Source of the DNA: Leifsonia sp. C5G2
GTDB taxonomy: Bacteria; Actinomycetota; Actinomycetes; Actinomycetales; Microbacteriaceae
Assembly: GCF_013359685.1 (NCBI RefSeq)
Contig: NZ_JABFMV010000013.1
Span: forward strand, 1-64,000
Length of the DNA: 64,000 bases
Reading direction: 5' to 3'
Below, in pieces: positions 43,473 through 53,957 of the stretch. Numbering within the stretch: position 1 is the first letter of the stretch; each line of letters starts with the position of its first letter. The notes beneath the pieces are model-generated. The model had not been told where the DNA came from. It searched no databases and saw nothing but the letters and a program-made list of their open reading frames with translations. Made by a program: the position numbers and the translations under genes.

Positions 43473-43853
43473 ATGGCGTCTCGGGGCAGCAAGCAGAAGA
43501 AGCGCGCGACGATGCGACTCGTCTACATCGACTTCTGGTCCGCCCTGAAGATCTCGTTCCTGGTGAGCATCATCGTCGCCGCGATCACGGTGGCCCTGGG
43601 GCTCGGCATGTGGTGGCTGCTCGACCGCTTCGGCGTGGTCGGCTCGGCGAGCGCCTTCCTGACGGACATCGCGGGCGACCAGGGCGCTGCGCTCGTCGCC
43701 GGGCTGACGTTCTCGAACGTCATGACCTTCACGCTCGTCGTCGCCCTGCTCGAGGTGATCGTGGTGTCCGCCCTCGGAGCGATCTTCGCGGCCCTCTACA
43801 ACCTGGCCGTGCACGTCGTGGGCGGCTGGAAGGTCACCTTCGGGAGCGACTGA
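43473..43853 (+). CDS. DUF3566 transmembrane protein
   Basis: The 126-residue protein has a basic start, two membrane helices (LVSIIVAAITVALGLGMWWL; VMTFTLVVALLEVIVVSALG) and the DUF3566 ending FAALYNLAVHVVGGW. In most actinobacteria this gene follows gyrA, but here it stands next to TetR genes. A TAGACT box lies about 55 bases upstream of the start. It overlaps the convergent BioQ-like gene by 20 bases. Confidence 0.88.
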   Translation: MASRGSKQKKRATMRLVYIDFWSALKISFLVSIIVAAITVALGLGMWWLLDRFGVVGSASAFLTDIAGDQGAALVAGLTFSNVMTFTLVVALLEVIVVSALGAIFAALYNLAVHVVGGWKVTFGSD

Positions 43854-44436
43854 GCTCCAGTCCGCCGACGAGCAGCCCGGCGCCGAACGCGAAGGCGGCG
43901 GCCGGGTCGTCCTCGTCGAGCGGCGAGCTCTCGGCGTCGGCGAGCACCCCGAGGGAGTCGTACTGCAGCCGCTGCTGCTCGTGCGAGACGTGACCGAGCA
44001 CGAAGTGCAGGAGGGCGGTCGCCGCGCGACGGGAGGTCTCCGCGTCGAAGCCGCCCTGCGCCACGGCGCGCTCGAGGCGATCGACGGTCTCGGATGAACC
44101 GAGCCCGAGCGCGAGCGTGCTCGACACGACCTCCGCTCCGTCGCGATAGGCGAGCAGCGCGTCCCGGAGGGCGGCCGCCTCGGCGCGCACGGCGTCCTGC
44201 CAACCCTCCGGCTCCACGGTCGCACGGCGGCGGGTGGCGACGATGCGATCGGCCAGCTCGGCGAGGAGGGTCTGCTTGTTCGGGAAGTGCCAGTACAGCG
44301 CGCTCGGCTGCACGTCGAGGGAGGCGGCCAGTCGCCGCATGGTGAGGTCGGGGAGGCCGAAGTCGTCCAGGATGCGGAGGGCCGCCTCCACCACGTCGTC
44401 GCGGGAGTGCCGTCGTCCGGTTTCGCTCGGTGCCAT
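43834..44436 (-). CDS. bioQ: TetR-family biotin repressor, BioQ-like
   Basis: The 200-residue regulator has an N-terminal helix-turn-helix (MRRLAASLDVQPSALYWHF, then PNKQTLLAELAD) of the tetracycline-repressor subgroup and a long helical C-terminal domain. It is divergent from bioY, and the shared promoter carries two TGAAC-N3-GTTCA dyads, very close to the BioQ motif known from Corynebacterium and Mycobacterium. On this basis it is called BioQ-like. Which signal releases it is unknown. Confidence 0.8.
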   Translation of the reverse strand: MAPSETGRRHSRDDVVEAALRILDDFGLPDLTMRRLAASLDVQPSALYWHFPNKQTLLAELADRIVATRRRATVEPEGWQDAVRAEAAALRDALLAYRDGAEVVSSTLALGLGSSETVDRLERAVAQGGFDAETSRRAATALLHFVLGHVSHEQQRLQYDSLGVLADAESSPLDEDDPAAAFAFGAGLLVGGLELSRSRR

Positions 44437-44444
44437 CCCGTCAG

Positions 44445-44477
44445 TATAGTGAACACCGTTCAGGTGAACACCGTTCA
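44445..44477. promoter_or_regulatory. bioY promoter -10 and tandem BioQ-type operators
   Basis: TATAGT (44445-44450) is followed at once by two identical dyads TGAACACCGTTCA at 44450-44462 and 44465-44477, spaced 15 bases. A weak -35 (TTCGCT, 44422-44427) is 17 bases before the -10. The opposite strand reads TATACT at the same place, so one set of operators could control both bioQ and bioY. Confidence 0.8.
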
Positions 44478-44492
44478 GGTAAGGACCCCGCG

Positions 44493-45122
44493 ATGATCGC
44501 TTCCCCGCTCTCTCCCCGTCGACGTCTCGACGCCACCGACCTCGCCCGCGTCGCGGTCTTCGCCGCCCTCGTCGCCGTGCTGGGGCTCCCCGCCGGGATC
44601 AACGTGTTCGGCTCCGTCCCCATCACGGCGCAGACACTCGGAGTCATGCTCGCGGGCGCCATCCTCGGACCTTGGCTCGGCGCCCTGTCGATGACGGTGC
44701 TGCTCGCCCTGGTCGCGGTCGGCCTCCCCCTGCTCTCGGGCGGTCGCGGCGGGATCGGCGTCTTCGTCGGCCCGTCGGCGGGCTACCTGATCGGCTGGAT
44801 CGTCGGGGCGGCCGTCATCGGGCTGATCGTGCACGCCGGTCGGCGCAAGCCGGTCTGGTGGCGCACGGTCGTCGGGATGCTCGTGGGCGGCATCCTCGTG
44901 GTCTACGCGTTCGGCGTCCCGGTGCAGAGCCTGGTGACCCGGCTGCCCCTCGACGCGACGGCGAAGCTCAGCCTCGTCTTCGTGCCGGGCGACCTGATCA
45001 AGGCCGCCATCGCGTCCGCCATCGTGATGACGCTCGTGCGGGCGTACCCGCGCGCGTTCCGCCGCACCTGGGAGACCCGGCCGCAGCCGGCCGAGACCCG
45101 CGACGCGGCACCGGTCGCGTGA
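44493..45122 (+). CDS. bioY: Biotin transporter substrate-binding component BioY
   Basis: The 209-residue S component of an ECF transporter has about six membrane helices with the BioY signature (VPITAQTLGVMLAGAILGP) followed by a glycine-rich loop (GRGGIGVFVGPSAGYLIGW). It binds biotin at the membrane and works with the BioM ATPase and BioN coupling protein encoded three genes on. ATG at 44493 starts the six-gene operon; the next gene overlaps its stop (GTGA). Confidence 0.93.
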   Translation: MIASPLSPRRRLDATDLARVAVFAALVAVLGLPAGINVFGSVPITAQTLGVMLAGAILGPWLGALSMTVLLALVAVGLPLLSGGRGGIGVFVGPSAGYLIGWIVGAAVIGLIVHAGRRKPVWWRTVVGMLVGGILVVYAFGVPVQSLVTRLPLDATAKLSLVFVPGDLIKAAIASAIVMTLVRAYPRAFRRTWETRPQPAETRDAAPVA

Positions 45123-46216
45123 TCCGGCTCCTCGACGCGCGGGATCCCGCCCTCCTCGACCGGCTGCGCGCAGCCCGCACGGAGGGCGACGTGCCGCTCG
45201 TGCTCGACGAGCGGTCGCCCGCGGCGCAGCGCACCGCGATCGAGGAGTGGACCCGCACCGCGATGCTCCCGGCGGAGGCGGGGTGGGCGACCGCGACCTC
45301 CGGCAGCTCCGGCAGCCCCCGCGTCGTGCTCCGCACGGCCGCGTCGTGGTCCGCCTCGCATTCCGCCGTCGCCGCCCTGCTCGGTGCGGGCCCGGACGAC
45401 GTGGTGGCACTGCCCGCCCCGGCATCGTCGTCGCTGACGCTGTACTCGCTCGCTCACGCCCTGGAGGGCGGCCCGCGCCCGGCCCTCGGGCCGATCGGGC
45501 CGGAGTCGACGCACCTGCACGGCACCCCGGAGGCGCTCCGGGGTGCGCTGGAGGCGCGGCCGCCGCGGCTGCGCTCCGCCCTGATCGGCGGCTCGCACCT
45601 CGACCCCGCGCTGCGGGCGCGGGCCGAGGCGGCCGGGATCCGGGTGGTCGCGTACTACGGCGCCGCCGAGCTCTCCTTCGTCGCGGCGGATGACGGCTCC
45701 GGCCTCTGCGCGTTCCCGGGCGTCGAGCTGCGCGTGGAGGACGGGGTGCTGTGGGTGCGCTCGCCGTTCGTCGCCCTCGGGTACGGCGGCTCGCGTCCCG
45801 GGCCGCTGCGCACCCGCGACGGCTGGTCGACGGTCGGCGACCGCGCAGAGCTCGTCGATGGCCGGCTCCGGCTGCTCGGGCGGGACGACGACGCCGTCCT
45901 CAGCGCCTCCGCGACGATCGTGCCGGAGGAGGTCGAGGCGGTGCTGCGCTCGGCGGAAGGCGTGCGCGACGCCGTCGTCTTCGGGGTCGAGCGCGGACCG
46001 GTCGGCGCTCTGGTCGGCGCCCTGATCGAGCCGACGGACGAGGATGGCGCTCCGACAGTCGCCGCCCTTCGCGGGGCGGCGGGCGAGCAGCTGGCACCGG
46101 CGCACCGGCCGCGCCTCTGGTTCGTCGGCCCGGTGCCGCGTACGACCTCCGGCAAGCCGGCCCGAGCCGAGGTCGCGCGGCGCGCCGCCGCGGGAGAGCT
46201 GGTGCGCCTTGGCTGA
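45119..46216 (+). CDS. AMP-forming acyl-CoA ligase, YhfT/MenE-like
   Basis: The 365-residue adenylate-forming enzyme has the core motifs A3 (TSGSSGSPR), A5 (YYGAAELSF), A7-A8 (TVGDRAEL, RLRLLGRDDDAVL) and A10 with the catalytic Lys (TSGKPARAEV). It is short, like MenE, because the N-terminal part is reduced. It sits between bioY and the thiolase gene, as YhfT does in Bacillus. It may activate an acid linked to biotin precursor or fatty acid supply. GTG start overlaps the bioY stop. Confidence 0.85.
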   Translation: MIRLLDARDPALLDRLRAARTEGDVPLVLDERSPAAQRTAIEEWTRTAMLPAEAGWATATSGSSGSPRVVLRTAASWSASHSAVAALLGAGPDDVVALPAPASSSLTLYSLAHALEGGPRPALGPIGPESTHLHGTPEALRGALEARPPRLRSALIGGSHLDPALRARAEAAGIRVVAYYGAAELSFVAADDGSGLCAFPGVELRVEDGVLWVRSPFVALGYGGSRPGPLRTRDGWSTVGDRAELVDGRLRLLGRDDDAVLSASATIVPEEVEAVLRSAEGVRDAVVFGVERGPVGALVGALIEPTDEDGAPTVAALRGAAGEQLAPAHRPRLWFVGPVPRTTSGKPARAEVARRAAAGELVRLG

Positions 46217-47330
46217 GTCGATCACACCGGTGATCGTGGCCGCCCGGCGGACCCCGATCGGCACGCGCGGCCGAGCGCTCGCCAGTCTGAGCGTCGGCGA
46301 GCTCGCCGGTCCCGTCATCCGGGCCGCGCTTGCCGATGCGGCGACCGCGACCGGCGCACCGGTCGCGGTCGCCGACGCCCTCCTCGGCAACTGCATGGGT
46401 CCCGGCGGCAATCCGGGCCGGATCGCGGCGCTCGCGGCCGGGCTCGACGCGACCACCCCCGGCGGCACCGTCGACCGGCAGTGCGGCAGCGGCCTCGCCG
46501 CCATCGTCGACGCAGCGACGGCCATCGCCGCGGGTGACCGCCGCGCGCGGGTGGCAGGCGGCGTCGAGAGCGCGTCGACCGCACCCGTTCGCTCCGTCGA
46601 CGGCGTGGCCTACGACCGGGCGCCGTTCGCGCCCGACGGCTGGCCGGATCCCGACATGCCCCGCGCAGCCGAGGACCTCGCCGCTCTCGATGGCCTCACC
46701 CGGGATCGGCAGGATGCGCACGCGGCCCGCAGCCACGCCCGCGCGACGGCCGCGCAGGCTGCGGGGCGCTTCGACGCCGAGCTCGTCCCCGTGGGCGGTG
46801 CCGCCGCCGACGACGCGATCGGTGCGGCCGCCCCGCTGCTGCACCGGCTGCCGCCGCTCTTCCCGGGCGGCACGCTGACCGCGGGAACGGCGACGCGGAT
46901 CGGCGACGGCGCCGCGGCCGTAATCCTGGTGCCCGGCGGCGCTCCCGGCCTCGCCCTGCGCGCCTCCGCCGTGGTCGGCTGCGACCCCGCGTTCCCCGGC
47001 GTCGGCGCCGGACCCGCCATCCATGCCGCGCTCGACCGGGCGGGAGCGACGACGGCCGATGTCGCGGCGTTCGAGCTCGTCGAGGCGTTCGCCGCCCAGA
47101 GCATCGCCGTGCTCGCCCGCCTCGGGCTCGACGACGACGACCCGCGCGTCTGCGCCGACGGCGGCGCGCTCGCGCTCGGCCACCCGTGGGGCGCCAGCGG
47201 CGCGGTCGCGGTGGTGCGGCTGTTCAGCCGGCTCGTCCGCGCGGGCGCGGCACCGGGCACCCTAGGCGTGGCGGCCGCCTCGGTCGGGGGCGGGATGGGC
47301 GTCGCCGCGGTCTTCGAGGTGGTGTCGTGA
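46209..47330 (+). CDS. Thiolase-like protein, YhfS-like, altered active site
   Basis: The 373-residue thiolase-fold protein keeps the nucleophile Cys (DRQCGSGLAAI, about residue 89) and the His in ALGHPWGASGA. The NEAFA motif reads VEAFA, and the second Cys in the usual CxGGGMG is Ser (SVGGGMG). It may do only a half reaction or decarboxylative step rather than normal thiolysis. TTG at 46209 overlaps the ligase gene by eight bases, with GGGAG upstream; a GTG near 46229 is the alternative. Confidence 0.82.
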   Translation: MAESITPVIVAARRTPIGTRGRALASLSVGELAGPVIRAALADAATATGAPVAVADALLGNCMGPGGNPGRIAALAAGLDATTPGGTVDRQCGSGLAAIVDAATAIAAGDRRARVAGGVESASTAPVRSVDGVAYDRAPFAPDGWPDPDMPRAAEDLAALDGLTRDRQDAHAARSHARATAAQAAGRFDAELVPVGGAAADDAIGAAAPLLHRLPPLFPGGTLTAGTATRIGDGAAAVILVPGGAPGLALRASAVVGCDPAFPGVGAGPAIHAALDRAGATTADVAAFELVEAFAAQSIAVLARLGLDDDDPRVCADGGALALGHPWGASGAVAVVRLFSRLVRAGAAPGTLGVAAASVGGGMGVAAVFEVVS

Positions 47331-48022
47331 ACGGCGGCCCGGCGATCGCGCTCGACGACGTCCGGGTGCGGCTCGGCGAGGTGGATGCGCTCCTCGGCGT
47401 CACGCTCGCCCTGGACGCCCGGACCGTCGCCGTCATCGGCGAGAACGGCTCCGGCAAGTCCACCTTCGCCCGGCTGCTCGCCGGACTCCTCGCCCCGGCG
47501 GCGGGACACCTCCGCGTGCTGGGGCTCGACCCGGTGCGCCAGGCGGCGGAGCTGCGGCGCCGGGTCGCGGTCGTGTTCAGCAACCCCGACGCGCAGATCG
47601 TCATGCCGACCGTCGCCGAGGATGTGGCCTTCTCGCTCCGGCCGCAGCGGCTGCCGCGCGACGAGCAGCGACGGCGGGTGGACGCGGCCCTCGACCGTTT
47701 CGGCCTCACGGCCCTGCGCGACCGCTCGTCGCACGACCTCTCGGGCGGCCAGAAGCAGCTGCTCGCCCTGGCCGGGGCGTTCGTGCGCGAGCCCGACCTG
47801 GTGGTGGCCGACGAGCCGACCGCCTACCTGGACGCCCGCAACGCCGGCCGCGTCGCCGCGCACCTGCTCGACGAGGGCGACCACCGGCTGGTGCTCGTCA
47901 CGCACGACCTCGCCCTGGCCGAGCGGTGCGACACCGCCGTGCTGTTCGCCGCCGGCCGGGTGGAGGCCGTCGGCCGTCCGGCCGACATCGTCGCCGAGTA
48001 CGAGCGGGTGCTCTCGTGCTGA
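47327..48022 (+). CDS. bioM: Biotin ECF transporter ATPase BioM
   Basis: The 231-residue ABC ATPase has Walker A GENGSGKST, Q-loop FSNPDAQIVM, signature LSGGQKQLLALAG, Walker B DLVVADEPTAYLD and H-loop VTHD. The Q-loop Asn-Pro-Asp form is typical of ECF-type A components. It powers biotin uptake with BioY and BioN. GTG at 47327 overlaps the thiolase stop (GTGA). Confidence 0.92.
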   Translation: MNGGPAIALDDVRVRLGEVDALLGVTLALDARTVAVIGENGSGKSTFARLLAGLLAPAAGHLRVLGLDPVRQAAELRRRVAVVFSNPDAQIVMPTVAEDVAFSLRPQRLPRDEQRRRVDAALDRFGLTALRDRSSHDLSGGQKQLLALAGAFVREPDLVVADEPTAYLDARNAGRVAAHLLDEGDHRLVLVTHDLALAERCDTAVLFAAGRVEAVGRPADIVAEYERVLSC

Positions 48023-48627
48023 GCCTCTACCGGCCGGGCGACGGCCTCCTGCACCGGATGCCGGCCGGCCCGAAGCTGCTCCTCGTCCTCGCCGCGGTGC
48101 TCGCGGTCTCGATGCTGCCCTCGCAGTGGTGGGGCGCCACCGTCGCGGGCGGAGCCGTTGTTGTCGCCTACGCGGTCGCCGGGCTGCACGACGGCCTGCT
48201 CGGGATGCGGGAGCTCGCCCGGCAGGTCGTCGCCCTCCGCTGGCTCGTCGTGGTGACGCTCGCCGCCCAGCTGCTCTTCCTCGGCCCCGAGCCCGCGGTG
48301 GCGAACACCGCGCGCGTGACCGCGGCCGTGCTGCTGGCCGGGCTGCTGGTGCTGACCACGCGCGTGACGGAGCTGCTCGACGCCGTCGAGCGCGGGCTGC
48401 GGCCATTCGAGCGGCTGGGCCTCGACTCCGAGCGTGCCGCGGTGCTGCTCACCGTCACCCTGACGACCGTTCCCGTCGTCGCGCGCCTCGCCGGGGACGT
48501 GCGGGAGGCGCAGCGGGCGCGCGGCGGACGGCCGGGGCTGCGCTTCTTCGCCGTGCCCTTCCTGATCTTGTCGCTGAAGCACGCCGACCAGCTCGGCGAG
48601 GCCCTGGCCGCACGGGGAGTGCGATGA
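48016..48627 (+). CDS. bioN: Biotin ECF transporter transmembrane protein BioN
   Basis: The 203-residue T component has about four membrane helices and the two ARG-type coupling motifs (REAQRARGG and ALAARGVR) that contact the ATPase. It opens with YRPGDGLLHRMPAGPKLLL, the usual EcfT start. GTG at 48016 overlaps bioM by seven bases. It completes the BioMNY transporter. Confidence 0.92.
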   Translation: MLSLYRPGDGLLHRMPAGPKLLLVLAAVLAVSMLPSQWWGATVAGGAVVVAYAVAGLHDGLLGMRELARQVVALRWLVVVTLAAQLLFLGPEPAVANTARVTAAVLLAGLLVLTTRVTELLDAVERGLRPFERLGLDSERAAVLLTVTLTTVPVVARLAGDVREAQRARGGRPGLRFFAVPFLILSLKHADQLGEALAARGVR

Positions 48628-48947
48628 CCGGGCGGCCGCGCGTGCTCGGACCGGTCGTCGACGACGAGACCCGGTGCATCCACTACCGGACGCCGCTCGA
48701 CGTCGTCGCCCTGAAGTTCGCCTGCTGCGGCGAGTACTACCCGTGCCACCTCTGCCACGCCGAGACGGCCGGCCACCCGGCCCGGCAGTGGCCGCTGTCG
48801 GACCGCGACGAGTACGCGGTGCTCTGCGGCGTCTGCGGGAACGAGCTGACCATCGCGGAGTACCTGGAGACCGACTCGTGCCCGAGCTGCGCTGCGGCGT
48901 TCAACCCCGGCTGCAGTCTCCACGCGCACCTGTACTTCGAGGTCTGA
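48624..48947 (+). CDS. CHY zinc-finger protein
   Basis: The 107-residue protein has the CHY zinc finger: CIHY near residue 18, CCGEYYPCHLCH (about residues 34-45), CGVCGNELTIAEYL and CPSCAAAFNPGCSLH. These bind several zinc ions; function in bacteria is unknown. ATG overlaps the bioN stop (ATGA), so it is co-translated with the transporter and may be linked to it or simply carried in the operon. Confidence 0.92.
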   Translation: MTGRPRVLGPVVDDETRCIHYRTPLDVVALKFACCGEYYPCHLCHAETAGHPARQWPLSDRDEYAVLCGVCGNELTIAEYLETDSCPSCAAAFNPGCSLHAHLYFEV

Positions 48948-48969
48948 CCCGAAGGCCGAGAACGCGGAA

Positions 48970-49000
48970 ACGCCGGGCGCGCCATCAGCGCGCCCGGCGT
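48970..49000. terminator. Bidirectional terminator after the bio operon
   Basis: ACGCCGGGCGCGC (48970-48982) and GCGCGCCCGGCGT (48988-49000) form a perfect 13-bp stem with a CATCA loop; AACGCGG/CCGCGTT extend pairing outside. It lies between the CHY gene and the convergent nuclease gene. Confidence 0.9.
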
Positions 49001-49014
49001 CCGCCGCGTTCCGG

Positions 49015-52000
49015 TTAGAACCAGCCGAAGATGCGGTCCAGCAGGTCGAGCAGCCAGTCGAGCACCGGGATGCCGGTGTGCGGCTTGTCCGCCTTCACCT
49101 TCAGCGTCGTCCAGCCGATCACGTCGCCCGTCGCGCTCTGCACCGACAGCTTGTGCTGGCCGTTGCCGGCGTCCTTCGGGAGCGTGAGCTTCAGGACGCC
49201 GTCCGCCGGCACCTGCACCCAGCCGCCGCCGACGTTCTGCGCCGGCGAGTACAGCCAGACGGAGACCCACTCGCCCGCGTGCGCGGCGCCCACGGTGACG
49301 CGGATCGCCTCACCCGGCTTGTAGGTGTCCTTGTCGACGGTCACCTTGTCCTCGAGCGCCTTCTTGAGCGCCGACTCCTTGGCGGCCTTGGGGTCGGTGC
49401 CCGGCTTCGGGTTCGACGGGGCGTCGGCCACGGCGAGCGGGACGCGGACGACCGTTCCCGAGTCCGGCGCGGTCAGCACCAGCGTGCTGGCGCCTGCCGC
49501 ATCCGCCGGGACCGCGAAGGTCACCGTCGCGTTGCCCGCGGCGTCCACCGGGGCGGAGCCGAGAGCGGCCGAGCCGTTCCAGGTGAGGTCCAGCTTCGTG
49601 TTGGCCGGGCTGCCGAGCGAGGTCAGGTTCAGCTTGGACACCTGGAGGGTGACCTGCTGGCCGCGCTGCAGCGTGCCGGACGGCACCCCGCTGACGCCGA
49701 CGCCGAGCTTCGCGAAGCTGGGCGAGAGCGGGCTGTTCTTCTGGATGTAGGAGATCCAGGCGTCCCGGTCGATCAGTCCGGAGTCCTTGGTGTCCTTTCC
49801 TGCCGCGAAGGCTCGGAAGTTGTCACCGCCCTGGAGCAGGAAGGAGAACGACCCGATGCGGTACGACTTCGCCGGGTCGATCGGCTTCCCGTCCACGATG
49901 ATGCTCGTGATGCGGTCGCCCTCGGCGCGGCTGGCGTCGTAGGTGTACGAGACGTTCTTCGACAGCCCCAGGTTGAGGAACGGCCGGCTCGGCACGGTGC
50001 CGTCGGCGTTGCGCTGCCACTGCTGCTCGAGCGCCTGCTTGAACTGGGCCCCGGTGAGGGTCGTCGTCCACAGGTTGTTCACGAACGGCAGCACCGCGTT
50101 GGCCTGGGCGTAGGTGACGCTGCCGTCGGTGCCGTAGAGCAGCTCCGCGCGGAGGCCGCCCGGGTTGACCACGCCGATCTCGGCGCCGCCGAGTTCCGCC
50201 GGCGACAGGGTCGACACCAGCGAATCGGCGACGAGGTTGCCGAGGGTGGACTCGCTCATCCGGTCGTCACGCGCACCGTTCAGGTAGGCGGTGGTGATGT
50301 CCTTCGTCACCGAGCCGACCTTCTGGTTGCCGATCACCGCCGCGTCGGCGAGCGCCTTGTCGACGATCGTCTTGACCGCCGCGACCCGCGGGTACGCGGA
50401 GACGAGGGCGGCGTCGGCGTCCGTCGTGCGGGCGACGTTCCGGGCGGTGTAGGCGGTGACCGCGTCCGACTCCGGGTCGACCGTCAGCGTGATCTGGCCG
50501 ATGTTCTCGCCGTAGCTGCCGGTCTGGAGGATCGGGCGGGTCTTGCCCGCGACGCCCGGGACCGGGGCATCCCACGCGTACTGCTTGTGCGTGTGGCCGG
50601 TGAAGATCGCCGAGACCTTCGCGCTCGTCTTGGTGACGATGTCGGCGAACGCTCCGCCCACCGCGACCTCCTGGTCGAGCGTCGCACCCTCGGGCGTGCC
50701 GAAGCCGGCGCCCTCGTGGTACTCGGCCACGATCACGTCCGCCTCGCCGTTGGACGTGTCGCCGTCGGTGAGCTGGCCGGCGACACGGTTGACCGCATCC
50801 ACCGGGTCGCCGAAGTCGACCGTGGAGACGCCGCCGGGCGAGACCAGGGTCGGGGTCTCCTCGGTGACCGCGCCGATGACGCCGACCGTCAGGCCGTCGA
50901 CCTGGAAGGTCGCGTACTCGGGCAGGGCCGGGTCCTTCGTGCCCTTCTTGTAGACGTTCGCGCCGAGGTAGGAGAACGTCGCCGCGTCCTTCACACGTCC
51001 GGTGAGGTCGGCGTAACCCTTGTCGAACTCGTGGTTGCCGACCGCGCTCGTCTTGAGGTCGAGGGCGTTCAGCACGTCGAGCGTCGGGATGTCGCCGGCC
51101 GAGGCCGAGGCGAACAGGGAGGCGCCGATGTTGTCGCCCGCGGAGAGGAAGAGCGAGTTGCCCTCGCCCGCCTCCGCGCGGAGCTTCTCGATCGTGCCCG
51201 CGAACTTCACGGTGTTGGCGTCGATCCGGCCGTGGAAGTCGTTGATGTTCATCAGGTTGAGCGTCACCGGCTTCGGCAGGAGCCCGAGGCCCACCACGAT
51301 CGGGTCGTGATCGGAGGACCGGTACGGTCCCGGCTCGTAGAGGTTGGTGACGTTGTAGTTGTAGCGGCTGTACTCCAGCGCCACCGACTCGCCCGAGTTG
51401 ATGTTCCAGACGTCCGCGCCGATGATCGTGCTGTTCAGGGCGGGCGAGGCGAGCACGTGGTCGAGGGACCCGACCGTGCCGCCGAAGGAGTACGTGGCCT
51501 TCGGCGTGCGGGTGCTGACCTGGTCGACGTAGCCGGCGTCGGTCAGGACCTTGATCGGGTCCTCCTTCAGGTACGCGTTGAAGTCGCCGATGAGGAGCAC
51601 CTTGTCGGTCTTCAGCGCCGCCTTGCGCTCGTCGGCGAAGGCCACGAGGGCCTGCGCCTGCTTGACGCGCGAGGCGTTCGAAGCGCCCTGGCCGTCGCCC
51701 TGGTCCGCGTCGGCGCCCGAACCGGAGCCCTTCGACTTGAAGTGGTTCACGATCGCGAGGAACGCGGTGGAGTCCTTCGCGCCGACCTTCTTGAAGGCCT
51801 GCGCGAGCGGCTGGCGGGCGTTGGAGAAGGCCGGGTCGTCGAGGATCTTGGACGCGCCGACCGGCTCGGCGGTCGCCTTCTTGTAGATGAACGCGGTGCG
51901 GATGACGTCCTCGGTCGCCGGCAGGGCCGACGGGGACTTCACGTAGCCCCAGACCTCTCCGCCTGCGGCCGCATTGAGCGCCGCCACGAGGGTGCTGAGG

Positions 52001-53790
52001 GCGGAGTCGCGGTCCTCGCCGAAGCGGGCCGAGTTCTCGATCTCCTCCAGCGAGACGACGTCGGCCGTGAGGCCGTTGATGGCCGAGACGATCTTGTCCT
52101 GCTGGCGCTTCAGGTTCTCCGCGTTCGCGGCGCCGCGGGCGTCGCATCCGCTGTTGACCGTGATGGGGTTGCCGTCGCGGTCGGTGTAGAACGTGCAGCC
52201 GGTCAGCTGGTCACCGGTGGTGGTGAAGTAGTTGAGCACGTTGAAGGTCGCCAGGCGCAGGTCGCCTCCGACGTTCTCCGGGGCCGCCGCGCGGGTGTTG
52301 GTGAACGCCACCGGCTGGACCGCGTCCGCGTTCGCCGGGGTCAGCTCGCCGGTCGGCTGGAACTTCCACGTGTTGTTGCGGTAGTCGAGGATGACCGGCT
52401 TGGTGAACGCGACCGGGGCGCCGACGCGCACCGGGTTCGTGACCGACAGGTACGGAAGCGGCTTCGACTTGTTCGCGTTGCTGAGGAAGTTGGTCGACGC
52501 ACCGTCGTCGAGCGTGACCGCCCGCGCCGCGTTGTCGGCGACGACCGCGGTGTACTCCGCGGTGCCCGGGCGTGCGGCCTCGGTCGGCTGCACGAGCGGC
52601 TTCTCGCCCGCCGCGAGCCCGATCTCACCGTACTGGTTCGCCGAGTAGACATCGGTGACGGTGAACGCGCCCTGCGGGGCGACGAGCATGCCCTCTAGGC
52701 TCTCGCGCTGCGCCGCCGTCGCCGGCAGGCCGACAGTCGCCGGCACCGGTGCGGTGACGGTCGAGGCGTCGAGCTTGGTCACGCCGGTCGCGGTGATCTC
52801 GGTGAGCCCGTTGAACTCGCTGACCGCTCCGGTGACCTTCACGTAGTCGCCCGCGGCGACCTGTCCCGCGAAGGACGAGCCGAAGACGAAGACGGCGTCC
52901 GACGCGGTGTGCGTCGCGAGGTCGACCGCGCCGCCGGTGCCCGGGGTCTGGATGTAGAAGCCGTTGAAGCCGCCGGTCGCGTACTGCGCGGTCACGACGC
53001 CGGCCGTGGTCACCGTGGTGCCCGCCTTCGGGCTGGTGTCGCCGGTGCCCTGGATCTCGGCGATCGGGGTCGTGGTGCCGTCGCCCGGGGTTCCGGGGTC
53101 GCCGGTGCCGGGGTCGCCCGTTCCCGGGTCGCCGGGCGCCGATGCCGCGTTCTGCGGGGTGATCGTCGCGCTCAGGGTGAAGTCGGCACTGTTGTCGTCG
53201 GTGTCCTTCGCGTTCGTGCGCACCAGCGACTTCACATCGGTGTTGCCGGTGGGCGCTGTCGCCTTCACGGTCTCGAACGTGTTGGAGGTGCCGTAGCCGA
53301 GGAGGTCGGCGACGCTCGCGTTCCCGGTCACCGAACCCGTCGGCAGGGCGAGCGCGGAGGCCGTCTTGGCCAGGATGAGCGTGCCCGTCGTCCCGCTCGG
53401 GTTCAGGGCGTTGCTCGCCACGTCCGGCGTCGGCAGGGCCTGGCCGTTCGAGCCGTTGGAGCCGCCGCCGACCAGGTAGTAGCCCTTCGCGCCGATCGAG
53501 CCGGTCAGCGGGACGACGCCGGTCGAGGCGGCCGTGCCGGTCGCCGGGCGGTACTGGAGGCTCCAGCCGGCCAGGCTGACCGCGCTGTCGCCCGGGTTGT
53601 AGAGCTCTACGAACTTGTTCGTGAAGGCCGCCCCGGCGCTGCCGCCGGAGAGGTAGGCCTCGTTGATGACGACACCGCTGCCGTCCGTGCTGGCGAGCGC
53701 GGGGGTCGCGACGAGCGCACCGGCTGCGAGGCCGGCTCCCGCGATGGCGGCGGCCGCGGCGCGCGCCAGCCTGCCGAATCTGGTTGACAT
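49015..53790 (-). CDS. Secreted multidomain nuclease/5'-nucleotidase
   Basis: The 1591-residue exported protein has a Sec signal (cut after ATPALA, about residue 34), a lamin-tail-like domain (about 35-180), a Gly/Asp/Pro linker, an OB-like domain, an ExeM/NucH-type endonuclease (LATFNVLNYF, SLEEIEN, LLIGDFNAYL, SSDHDPIVVG), then a complete 5'-nucleotidase (NINDFHGRID, SAGDN, GNHEFDKG, GHTHKQ, and the C domain STLGNLVADSL). The tail has Ig-like domains and no sorting signal. It probably degrades extracellular DNA to nucleosides and phosphate. GAGGAG fixes ATG at 53790. Confidence 0.93.
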   Translation of the reverse strand: MSTRFGRLARAAAAAIAGAGLAAGALVATPALASTDGSGVVINEAYLSGGSAGAAFTNKFVELYNPGDSAVSLAGWSLQYRPATGTAASTGVVPLTGSIGAKGYYLVGGGSNGSNGQALPTPDVASNALNPSGTTGTLILAKTASALALPTGSVTGNASVADLLGYGTSNTFETVKATAPTGNTDVKSLVRTNAKDTDDNSADFTLSATITPQNAASAPGDPGTGDPGTGDPGTPGDGTTTPIAEIQGTGDTSPKAGTTVTTAGVVTAQYATGGFNGFYIQTPGTGGAVDLATHTASDAVFVFGSSFAGQVAAGDYVKVTGAVSEFNGLTEITATGVTKLDASTVTAPVPATVGLPATAAQRESLEGMLVAPQGAFTVTDVYSANQYGEIGLAAGEKPLVQPTEAARPGTAEYTAVVADNAARAVTLDDGASTNFLSNANKSKPLPYLSVTNPVRVGAPVAFTKPVILDYRNNTWKFQPTGELTPANADAVQPVAFTNTRAAAPENVGGDLRLATFNVLNYFTTTGDQLTGCTFYTDRDGNPITVNSGCDARGAANAENLKRQQDKIVSAINGLTADVVSLEEIENSARFGEDRDSALSTLVAALNAAAGGEVWGYVKSPSALPATEDVIRTAFIYKKATAEPVGASKILDDPAFSNARQPLAQAFKKVGAKDSTAFLAIVNHFKSKGSGSGADADQGDGQGASNASRVKQAQALVAFADERKAALKTDKVLLIGDFNAYLKEDPIKVLTDAGYVDQVSTRTPKATYSFGGTVGSLDHVLASPALNSTIIGADVWNINSGESVALEYSRYNYNVTNLYEPGPYRSSDHDPIVVGLGLLPKPVTLNLMNINDFHGRIDANTVKFAGTIEKLRAEAGEGNSLFLSAGDNIGASLFASASAGDIPTLDVLNALDLKTSAVGNHEFDKGYADLTGRVKDAATFSYLGANVYKKGTKDPALPEYATFQVDGLTVGVIGAVTEETPTLVSPGGVSTVDFGDPVDAVNRVAGQLTDGDTSNGEADVIVAEYHEGAGFGTPEGATLDQEVAVGGAFADIVTKTSAKVSAIFTGHTHKQYAWDAPVPGVAGKTRPILQTGSYGENIGQITLTVDPESDAVTAYTARNVARTTDADAALVSAYPRVAAVKTIVDKALADAAVIGNQKVGSVTKDITTAYLNGARDDRMSESTLGNLVADSLVSTLSPAELGGAEIGVVNPGGLRAELLYGTDGSVTYAQANAVLPFVNNLWTTTLTGAQFKQALEQQWQRNADGTVPSRPFLNLGLSKNVSYTYDASRAEGDRITSIIVDGKPIDPAKSYRIGSFSFLLQGGDNFRAFAAGKDTKDSGLIDRDAWISYIQKNSPLSPSFAKLGVGVSGVPSGTLQRGQQVTLQVSKLNLTSLGSPANTKLDLTWNGSAALGSAPVDAAGNATVTFAVPADAAGASTLVLTAPDSGTVVRVPLAVADAPSNPKPGTDPKAAKESALKKALEDKVTVDKDTYKPGEAIRVTVGAAHAGEWVSVWLYSPAQNVGGGWVQVPADGVLKLTLPKDAGNGQHKLSVQSATGDVIGWTTLKVKADKPHTGIPVLDWLLDLLDRIFGWF

Positions 53791-53957
53791 TGTTCTCCTC
53801 GGTCGGTGAGGTGCGTGGGATGAGTCCGCGGCCAACGTAGAGAATCCGTCGAACGGGACTGTTTCTCGTGTGTGAACGTACAGAAAACTCGTTCGGGGGT
53901 AGACCGCTCATTTGAGCACCGCACGGGGGCTCCCGCCGATGCGCCATGATGAGAGGC

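Follow-up and report, generated by a model that had tools for sequence, protein, structure and literature searches.

The window considered here is a stretch of 64,000 nucleotides of Leifsonia sp. C5G2 (contig NZ_JABFMV010000013.1, positions 1 to 64,000), within which lies an operon that joins the genes of a biotin importer, bioY, bioM, and bioN, to those of a short acyl-adenylate-forming ligase and a protein of the thiolase fold. The pair appears to be akin to YhfT and YhfS, whose genes appear in the BirA biotin regulon in the portions of the literature that were covered, where no part in biotin metabolism is ascribed to them. The association of such a ligase with such a thiolase recurs in many actinobacteria under a different regulator and, in an alphaproteobacterium, beside bioY. 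To this picture, our analysis adds the predicted control of the pair itself by BioQ, its independence from the biotin synthase gene bioB, and the loss of the catalytic residue Cys378 from the thiolase-fold protein in every member that is readable at that position. What the pair does is a more tentative matter. We lean toward a part in fatty-acyl salvage when biotin is scarce which, if true, would amount to a built-in biotin-sparing response.

The operon and its genes

The original prediction, made from the letters of the window, described six genes with overlapping ends (bioY, ligase, thiolase-like, bioM, bioN, and a CHY zinc-finger gene) beneath two tandem TGAAC-N3-GTTCA dyads and next to a divergent TetR gene. 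Open reading frames (ORFs), Pfam matches, and a motif scan confirm this layout, and the first two show the genes to be real. The operon had been drawn from 44430 to 48947, of which the end stands and the start does not, because an ORF opening at 44430 would read through the operators and overlap the start of the TetR gene; the ATG at 44493 is most likely the true start of bioY, giving a run of 44493-48947. The features are as follows.

43834 to 44436, minus strand: TetR-family regulator, BioQ-like (P0001; Pfam TetR_N 8.6e-12, TetR_C_1 1.7e-14)
44450 to 44462, unstranded: operator dyad 1, TGAACACCGTTCA, a perfect TGAAC-N3-GTTCA
44465 to 44477, unstranded: operator dyad 2, TGAACACCGTTCA, likewise a perfect TGAAC-N3-GTTCA, 15 bp after dyad 1
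44493 to 45122, plus strand: bioY, biotin S-component (P0002; PF02632 3.6e-36; ATG start)
45119 to 46216, plus strand: short acyl-adenylate-forming ligase, yhfT/MenE-like (P0003; PF00501 AMP-binding 5.4e-10, PF13193 AMP-binding_C 3.4e-07; GTG start)
46209 to 47330, plus strand: thiolase-fold protein without the second catalytic Cys (P0004; PF00108 Thiolase_N 1.9e-41, PF02803 Thiolase_C 1.9e-25; TTG start)
47327 to 48022, plus strand: bioM, energy-coupling factor (ECF) ATPase (P0005; PF00005 ABC_tran 3.7e-27; TIGR04520 182 bits, below the cut-off of 315)
48016 to 48627, plus strand: bioN, ECF transmembrane T-component (P0006; PF02361 CbiQ 5.6e-12)
48624 to 48947, plus strand: CHY zinc-finger protein (P0007; PF05495 zf-CHY 1.7e-12)

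Each gene overlaps the next by a few bases (45119/45122, 46209/46216, 47327/47330, 48016/48022, and 48624/48627), the starts behind these coordinates being our own choice. The BioYMN importer set, consisting of the BioY S-component, the ECF-type ATPase, and the T-component, is complete within the one operon, with the Pfam cut-offs passed and the NCBIfam cut-off for the ECF ATPase not. A consensus scan of 44300-49100 returned neither a sigma-70-like promoter nor an intrinsic terminator. Of 17 related Microbacteriaceae loci that begin with bioY, 9 include the CHY zinc-finger gene; at another locus (L051, 6984-7283), the gene follows the ligase-thiolase pair, and bioYMN lies elsewhere in that genome.

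BioQ-type operators and the regulator

The dyads had been described as near the motif bound by BioQ. The connection to BioQ holds, and the word is too weak, for both dyads match exactly the actinobacterial BioQ consensus TGAAC-N3-GTTCA, as given in the accessible part of PMC3398298. At no more than one mismatch, the window contains four dyad matches where 0.34 would be expected, a count reached by none of 100 shuffles, and two of only three perfect dyads in the entire 4.09-Mb genome are those at bioY. The third (G000:C31:144388-144400, on contig 31; L001 8389) was set aside, with no biotin gene recognized alongside by eye; an open frame resembling parA, also judged by eye, lies ∼1.8 kb from it. 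The divergent TetR protein has the TetR fold with an N-terminal helix-turn-helix. The closest solved structures to it are 5xs9, 5yek, and 5yej (143.5-143.8 bits), which we take to be those of M. smegmatis BioQ, and the next is TetR class A, at 87.

The same arrangement extends to relatives. A sample of 120 Microbacteriaceae genomes, each at least 90% complete, was read at its best-scoring places, and the numbers of genomes found there with the gene order or the pair are lower bounds because the lower-scoring places were not all read. A perfect dyad lies within 400 bp upstream of the first gene in 14 of the 19 loci read with their flanks, and the upstream zones hold 27 dyads in 7.6 kb, compared with none in 195 kb elsewhere. 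Successive dyads are spaced by 15 bp in 14 of 15 cases (the window together with loci L033-L058). Twelve of the 19 loci have a detected TetR gene, and all twelve have dyads; four loci (L033-L036) have neither TetR gene nor dyad, one (L043) ends at a contig border, and two in which the pair stands apart from bioYMN (L041 and L051) have a dyad and no TetR gene alongside. Among 80 actinobacterial loci drawn from a wider scan (below), a perfect dyad is found upstream in 22, amounting to 22 dyads in 31 kb versus 2 in 949 kb elsewhere. The biotin meaning of the motif is further supported by one of the two Microbacteriaceae genomes with bioB (G064), where two BioQ dyads lie ∼0.3 kb upstream of the bioB match; at the bioB match of the other (G072), no dyad was seen. 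Overall, the operators and the divergent BioQ-like gene support the prediction that the operon is under BioQ-type control.

Nine Leifsonia/Agromyces loci (L059, L060, L062, L066, L070, L074, L084, L085, and L094) have no dyad at bioY and no detected TetR gene. They share 8-mers upstream of bioY, TAGCGTGA in eight of the nine and ATTCTTGT in six, which may represent another control system or a promoter. No common palindrome was found upstream of loci lacking BioQ dyads in any of five groups, only shared 8-mers.

A close parallel for the transporter part of the operon is bioYMN of C. glutamicum, which is likewise under BioQ, encodes BioY, BioM, and BioN, and has a TGAAC-N3-GTTCA box at bioY. In the portion of PMC3398298 available, a primer across the bioY start holds TGAACACTGTTCAGG, for which the window counterpart is TGAACACCGTTCAGG, and bioYMN mRNA is reported to be higher at biotin limitation. 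The differences are that bioY, bioM, and bioN of C. glutamicum are consecutive (cg2147-cg2149), with neither ligase nor thiolase, whereas both are inserted in the window operon; that the primer shows one box and the window has two; and that C. glutamicum keeps bioB and bioA, whereas Leifsonia sp. C5G2 is without bioB.

Gene order in other genomes

The original prediction called for a comparison of gene order in other genomes, and the order proves to recur in many actinobacteria and to be rotated in Azospirillum, so that the objection of a neighbourhood confined to one genome falls away. Besides Leifsonia sp. C5G2, at least 16 of the Microbacteriaceae genomes have bioY-ligase-thiolase-bioM-bioN (with bioN ∼2 kb farther along in L033), and in a 17th (L046), the contig stops inside the thiolase gene. 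Two others (G015 and G090) have the ligase-thiolase pair without adjoining bioYMN. In both, the unlinked pair has a perfect dyad of its own, and bioYMN is located elsewhere with its own dyads and a divergent TetR gene beside bioY (G015 has an additional bioYMN copy without a dyad). The pair is therefore predicted to be targeted by BioQ independently of bioYMN.

A contig scan with the thiolase alignment gave 581 confirmed places, the best 80 of which, all actinobacterial by title, constitute the named loci referred to throughout; their genera include Agromyces, Rhodococcus, Nocardia, Saccharopolyspora, Microbispora, Nonomuraea, and Blastococcus. The full order is present in 66 of the 80. Seven have ligase and thiolase with the other genes not in line, including four (L096, L103, L106, and L129) with bioYMN nearby on the opposite strand, and the remaining seven lack one gene or two, in some cases where a contig ends. 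In a phylum-wide sample of 246 genomes, rich in uncultured lineages, the thiolase family is rare, being present in 6 at E < 1e-100, a threshold set after the list had been seen, and six genomes are too few for a statistic. A literature search by titles and the starts of abstracts found no actinobacterial bioYMN operon described as containing the ligase and the thiolase; the search did not extend to RegPrecise or to most subscription papers, where the arrangement may be listed.

Six plasmid records, two of them unannotated, were read from the best 40 of 1539 matches. Azospirillum plasmids from two species carry the same five genes in the rotated order bioM-bioN-bioY-ligase-thiolase. No BioR-like box was found within 1.6 kb upstream of the Azospirillum operon at up to two mismatches. 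On two Rhizobium plasmids (L139 5022-9638 and L142 5009-9795), relatives of the pair occur outside any biotin operon, in the order thioesterase-ligase-thiolase without bioY, followed by genes for a short-chain dehydrogenase/reductase-type oxidoreductase and a cupin; in the thiolases of these plasmids, position 378 is Gly and Asn316 is kept.

The genes beyond the five were surveyed by looking at 11 loci. The second ligases that follow bioN in most Rhodococcus and Nocardia loci are of the same kind, and the two that were read (L067 8325-9776 and L063 8382-9785) are full-length. Genome G360 (L150 3936-5330) has bioY-thiolase-bioM-bioN-ligase, the short ligase being missing and a full-length one standing after bioN, which suggests that short and full-length ligases may replace each other.

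Kinship of the pair with yhfT and yhfS

For the thiolases and the full-length ligases, the best equivalog-level NCBIfam models are PRK06690 (NF005212) and PRK07638 (NF005797), which we take to be YhfS and YhfT, respectively. The cut-off is reached for neither: PRK06690 requires 498 bits, and the window thiolase scores 244, those of L003 and L033 325, and that of A. thermophilum, one of the Azospirillum species, 385; PRK07638 requires 518, and the window ligase scores 85, the second ligase of Rhodococcus 218, and that of A. thermophilum 336. These proteins are relatives of the two families, not members. The window ligase has its best NCBIfam score with the MenE-type model PRK07824 (117 bits, far under the cut-off of 345), PRK07638 being second. 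It is like the short MenE-type ligases in length, near 365 residues, and differs from them in setting, theirs being menaquinone and its own biotin. It also differs from the Azospirillum ligase, which is full-length at 483 residues. Together, these scores support the assignment of the pair as akin to the yhfT/yhfS type.

The grouping of bioY, yhfT, and yhfS under BirA in Bacillus, on which the original prediction drew, agrees with the available sections of the literature, according to which BirA targets bioY, yhfS, and yhfT in both B. subtilis and S. aureus (PMC11089781, PMC6391492, PMC7235819, PMC6323116). Bacillus and Staphylococcus thus resemble the window in having an importer, a ligase, and a thiolase relative in one biotin regulon; they differ in that the regulator is BirA and not BioQ, in that the window proteins fall under the PRK07638 and PRK06690 cut-offs, and in that the Bacillus side is known from these papers. 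The central proposal, that Leifsonia places a yhfT/yhfS-type pair under BioQ, is supported by the consensus dyads, the BioQ-like TetR protein, and the two models as best equivalog matches below their cut-offs, as far as sequence comparison can take it. Both of its parts, BioQ control and yhfT/yhfS kinship, find support in the sequence; the further suggestion of precursor synthesis does not, for reasons given below.

Loss of the Claisen base in the thiolase-fold protein

The window thiolase is predicted (predicted local distance difference test, pLDDT, 91; predicted template modeling score, pTM, 0.93) to adopt the standard thiolase fold, its model aligning to thiolases with Z 53.5 and a root-mean-square deviation of 2.0 over 358 residues. 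With the biosynthetic thiolase of Z. ramigera, it has in common the fold, the nucleophilic Cys (Cys92, equivalent to Cys89), and the catalytic His (His325, equivalent to His348). It departs from that enzyme at Asn316 of the NEAF motif, replaced by Val291, and at Cys378 of the CxG motif, replaced by Ser358. According to the part of PMC3406046 available, Cys378 is the base that abstracts the proton, and Asn316 together with His348 stabilizes the enolate; the reference list of that paper also includes, by title, a study of the Z. ramigera Cys378-to-Ser change and acetyl-enzyme partitioning.

These substitutions are general. An alignment was made of 104 members, comprising the window protein, 19 from Microbacteriaceae, those of the 80 named loci, 2 from Azospirillum, and 2 from Rhizobium. 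The nucleophilic Cys and the catalytic His are present in all 104, partly by construction for the 80 named loci because the scan patterns contained both residues; position 378 was in no pattern. At the position of Asn316, Asn is found in 29 members, Thr in 42, and Val in 33. The position of Cys378 is occupied by Ala in 57, Ser in 41, and Gly in 5, with one gap, and hence by Cys in none of 103 readable members. The Azospirillum thiolase, with Gly at 378, keeps Asn316. Five further members (G360, G127, G168, Shinella, and Streptantibioticus) have Ala, Ser, Ala, Gly, and Gly, respectively, which brings the tally to none of 108. NEAF and CxG are both intact in all 13 ordinary thiolases taken from the same organism family, two of them from the Leifsonia sp. 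C5G2 genome itself. The GGG loop is also conserved across the thiolase-fold members. The Cys of a GNC-GPGG motif was considered as a substitute for Cys378 and is no general answer, being Cys in only 79 of 104 members.

The residues that are left would support the acyl-transfer half-reaction of a thiolase, and the base for making or breaking a carbon-carbon bond is gone; its absence points to acyl transfer in preference to thiolase chemistry. This bears directly on the most conventional explanation, that the pair performs ordinary fatty acid β-oxidation and is sited here merely for co-expression. The family names (acyl-CoA synthetase and acetyl-CoA C-acyltransferase, where CoA is coenzyme A), the passing of the TIGR01930 cut-off, and the closeness of the fold are all in keeping with it, but Cys378 is lost from all readable members and kept in all 13 ordinary thiolases, unlinked pairs have dyads of their own, and the linkage to bioY is repeated, and we regard it as unlikely. 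An equally improbable alternative takes the loss of Cys378 in all members, and of Asn316 in 75 of 104, as the mark of a protein that is no longer an enzyme and instead binds, or serves as a scaffold for, the ligase or the transporter. A pure scaffold would have no need of the conserved nucleophilic Cys, His, and GGG loop, an argument tempered by the construction of the scan patterns.

Biotin synthesis genes and BioY

No bioB above cut-off was found in the Leifsonia sp. C5G2 genome. The sole bioF match falls below the bioF cut-off and was rejected as glycine C-acetyltransferase (Kbl), with 642 bits to NF005394 and the gene for threonine dehydrogenase (Tdh) adjoining; bioF-like matches occur also in 23 other genomes, and the identity was resolved for Leifsonia sp. 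C5G2 only. The search for biotin synthesis genes covered bioB and bioF. Biotin protein ligase is present. In the 120 Microbacteriaceae genomes, bioB is confined to two (G064 and G072) and is found in none of the 20 with the pair, Leifsonia sp. C5G2 included. Farther afield, the counts were made on 50 of the 80 named genomes, picked mainly as one per species: of these genomes with the thiolase, 29 have bioB and all 50 have BioY. The six genomes of the phylum-wide sample with the thiolase family have BioY in six cases and bioB in two, the figures for all 246 being 174 and 52. The pair is independent of bioB across genomes. Linkage accounts for most of its co-occurrence with BioY, which is also present where the pair is out of line with bioY (G015, G090, G127, Knoellia, Nigerium, and Propionibacterium cyclohexanicum).

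These distributions decide against the proposal, advanced in the original prediction, that the pair makes a biotin precursor such as a pimeloyl-type thioester. In its favor, BirA governs yhfS and yhfT together with biotin genes in both B. subtilis and S. aureus (PMC11089781 and PMC6391492, in their accessible text), and a thiolase and a ligase could in principle lengthen a dicarboxylic acid. But the Claisen base is missing, the bioF-like match is Kbl, and the pair does without bioB in all 20 Microbacteriaceae genomes and in 21 of the 50 named ones. Because Leifsonia sp. C5G2 has no bioB, the pair does not serve ordinary de novo biotin synthesis there and, more broadly, the persistence of the association in genomes without biotin synthase rules out precursor synthesis in those genomes. 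For Leifsonia sp. C5G2, it is refuted by ordinary criteria, barring an unrecognized replacement for biotin synthase, and as a general account of the pair, we consider it very improbable.

Proposed fatty-acyl salvage and possible fates of imported biotin

Our preferred reading, held tentatively and at somewhat less than even confidence, is that the pair forms a module of acyl activation and acyl transfer for times of biotin scarcity, most likely for a fatty-acyl salvage that spares the biotin-dependent acetyl-CoA carboxylase. A BioQ-type repressor would keep the operon off when biotin is ample and allow it on when biotin is scarce. The ligase would then adenylate a carboxylic acid, whose acyl group would be taken up on the Cys of the thiolase-like protein and handed to an acceptor such as CoA or acyl carrier protein. 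The substrates would be fatty acids, external or recycled, which is our own choice among possible acids, and lipid synthesis would thereby become less reliant on acetyl-CoA carboxylase during biotin shortage. The sparing of biotin by oleate is a classical effect. In S. aureus, biotin limitation works chiefly via acetyl-CoA carboxylase and membrane lipids, as far as the available text of PMC12642757 goes, which does not mention oleate, and YhfT of B. subtilis is described in the accessible part of a review (PMC10988940) as yielding only acyl adenylates and no CoA thioesters, the acyl groups going to acyl carrier protein for surfactin. A ligase and a Cys acyltransferase that load salvaged fatty acids would fit both findings, and would fit the presence of the pair with or without bioB.

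Several observations weigh against this reading. The fatty acid evidence comes from Bacillus YhfT by way of a review, and the window ligase is short, with 85 bits on PRK07638 for a cut-off of 518. The acyl acceptor of the proposed scheme has no candidate. A protein without Cys378 may still retain some thiolase activity if another group takes over its part, and the window thiolase does score above the general acetyl-CoA C-acyltransferase cut-off (TIGR01930, 260 versus 240.55 bits). A second ligase stands after bioN in most Rhodococcus and Nocardia loci, without explanation. The perfect dyad is missing from 58 of the 80 named loci, and BioQ control is therefore not general to the pair; those 58 are presumably under some other control. 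Finally, the constant company of BioY fits an acid imported by BioY as well as, or better than, it fits fatty acids.

This last point leads to the main competing explanation, in which the pair acts on the acid that BioY imports, either biotin or a vitamer whose side chain is altered. Once activated by the ligase, the acid would have its acyl chain transferred, trimmed, or rebuilt by the thiolase-fold protein, and usable biotin would be kept or recovered, which, if true, would be a novel step in biotin salvage. Of the 80 named loci, 66 have the pair within the transporter operon, and in Azospirillum it follows bioY; BioY occurs in every one of the 50 named thiolase genomes, with or without bioB. 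On the other hand, Claisen chemistry or thiolysis on the side chain would call for Cys378, which is missing, and for Asn316, which 75 of 104 members lack; no reductase or hydratase is included among the six operon genes; and a literature search on bisnorbiotin in bacteria gave no title on such salvage. Because Cys378 is missing, the Claisen or thiolytic processing of a biotin degradation acid is weakened in particular and becomes less likely. As a whole, we view action on a BioY-imported acid as possible but doubtful.

A further reading is a second route of biotin activation, operating beside biotin protein ligase. The ligase would form biotinyl-adenylate, and the Cys of the thiolase fold would hold a biotinyl thioester, trapping imported biotin and passing it to CoA or a carrier protein. 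We think this distinctly improbable.

Adjacent sequence

Beyond the CHY gene, the minus strand of the window carries a 1606-residue frame (49015-53835) that is convergent with the operon and, by eye, resembles a fusion of a secreted nuclease and a 5'-nucleotidase.

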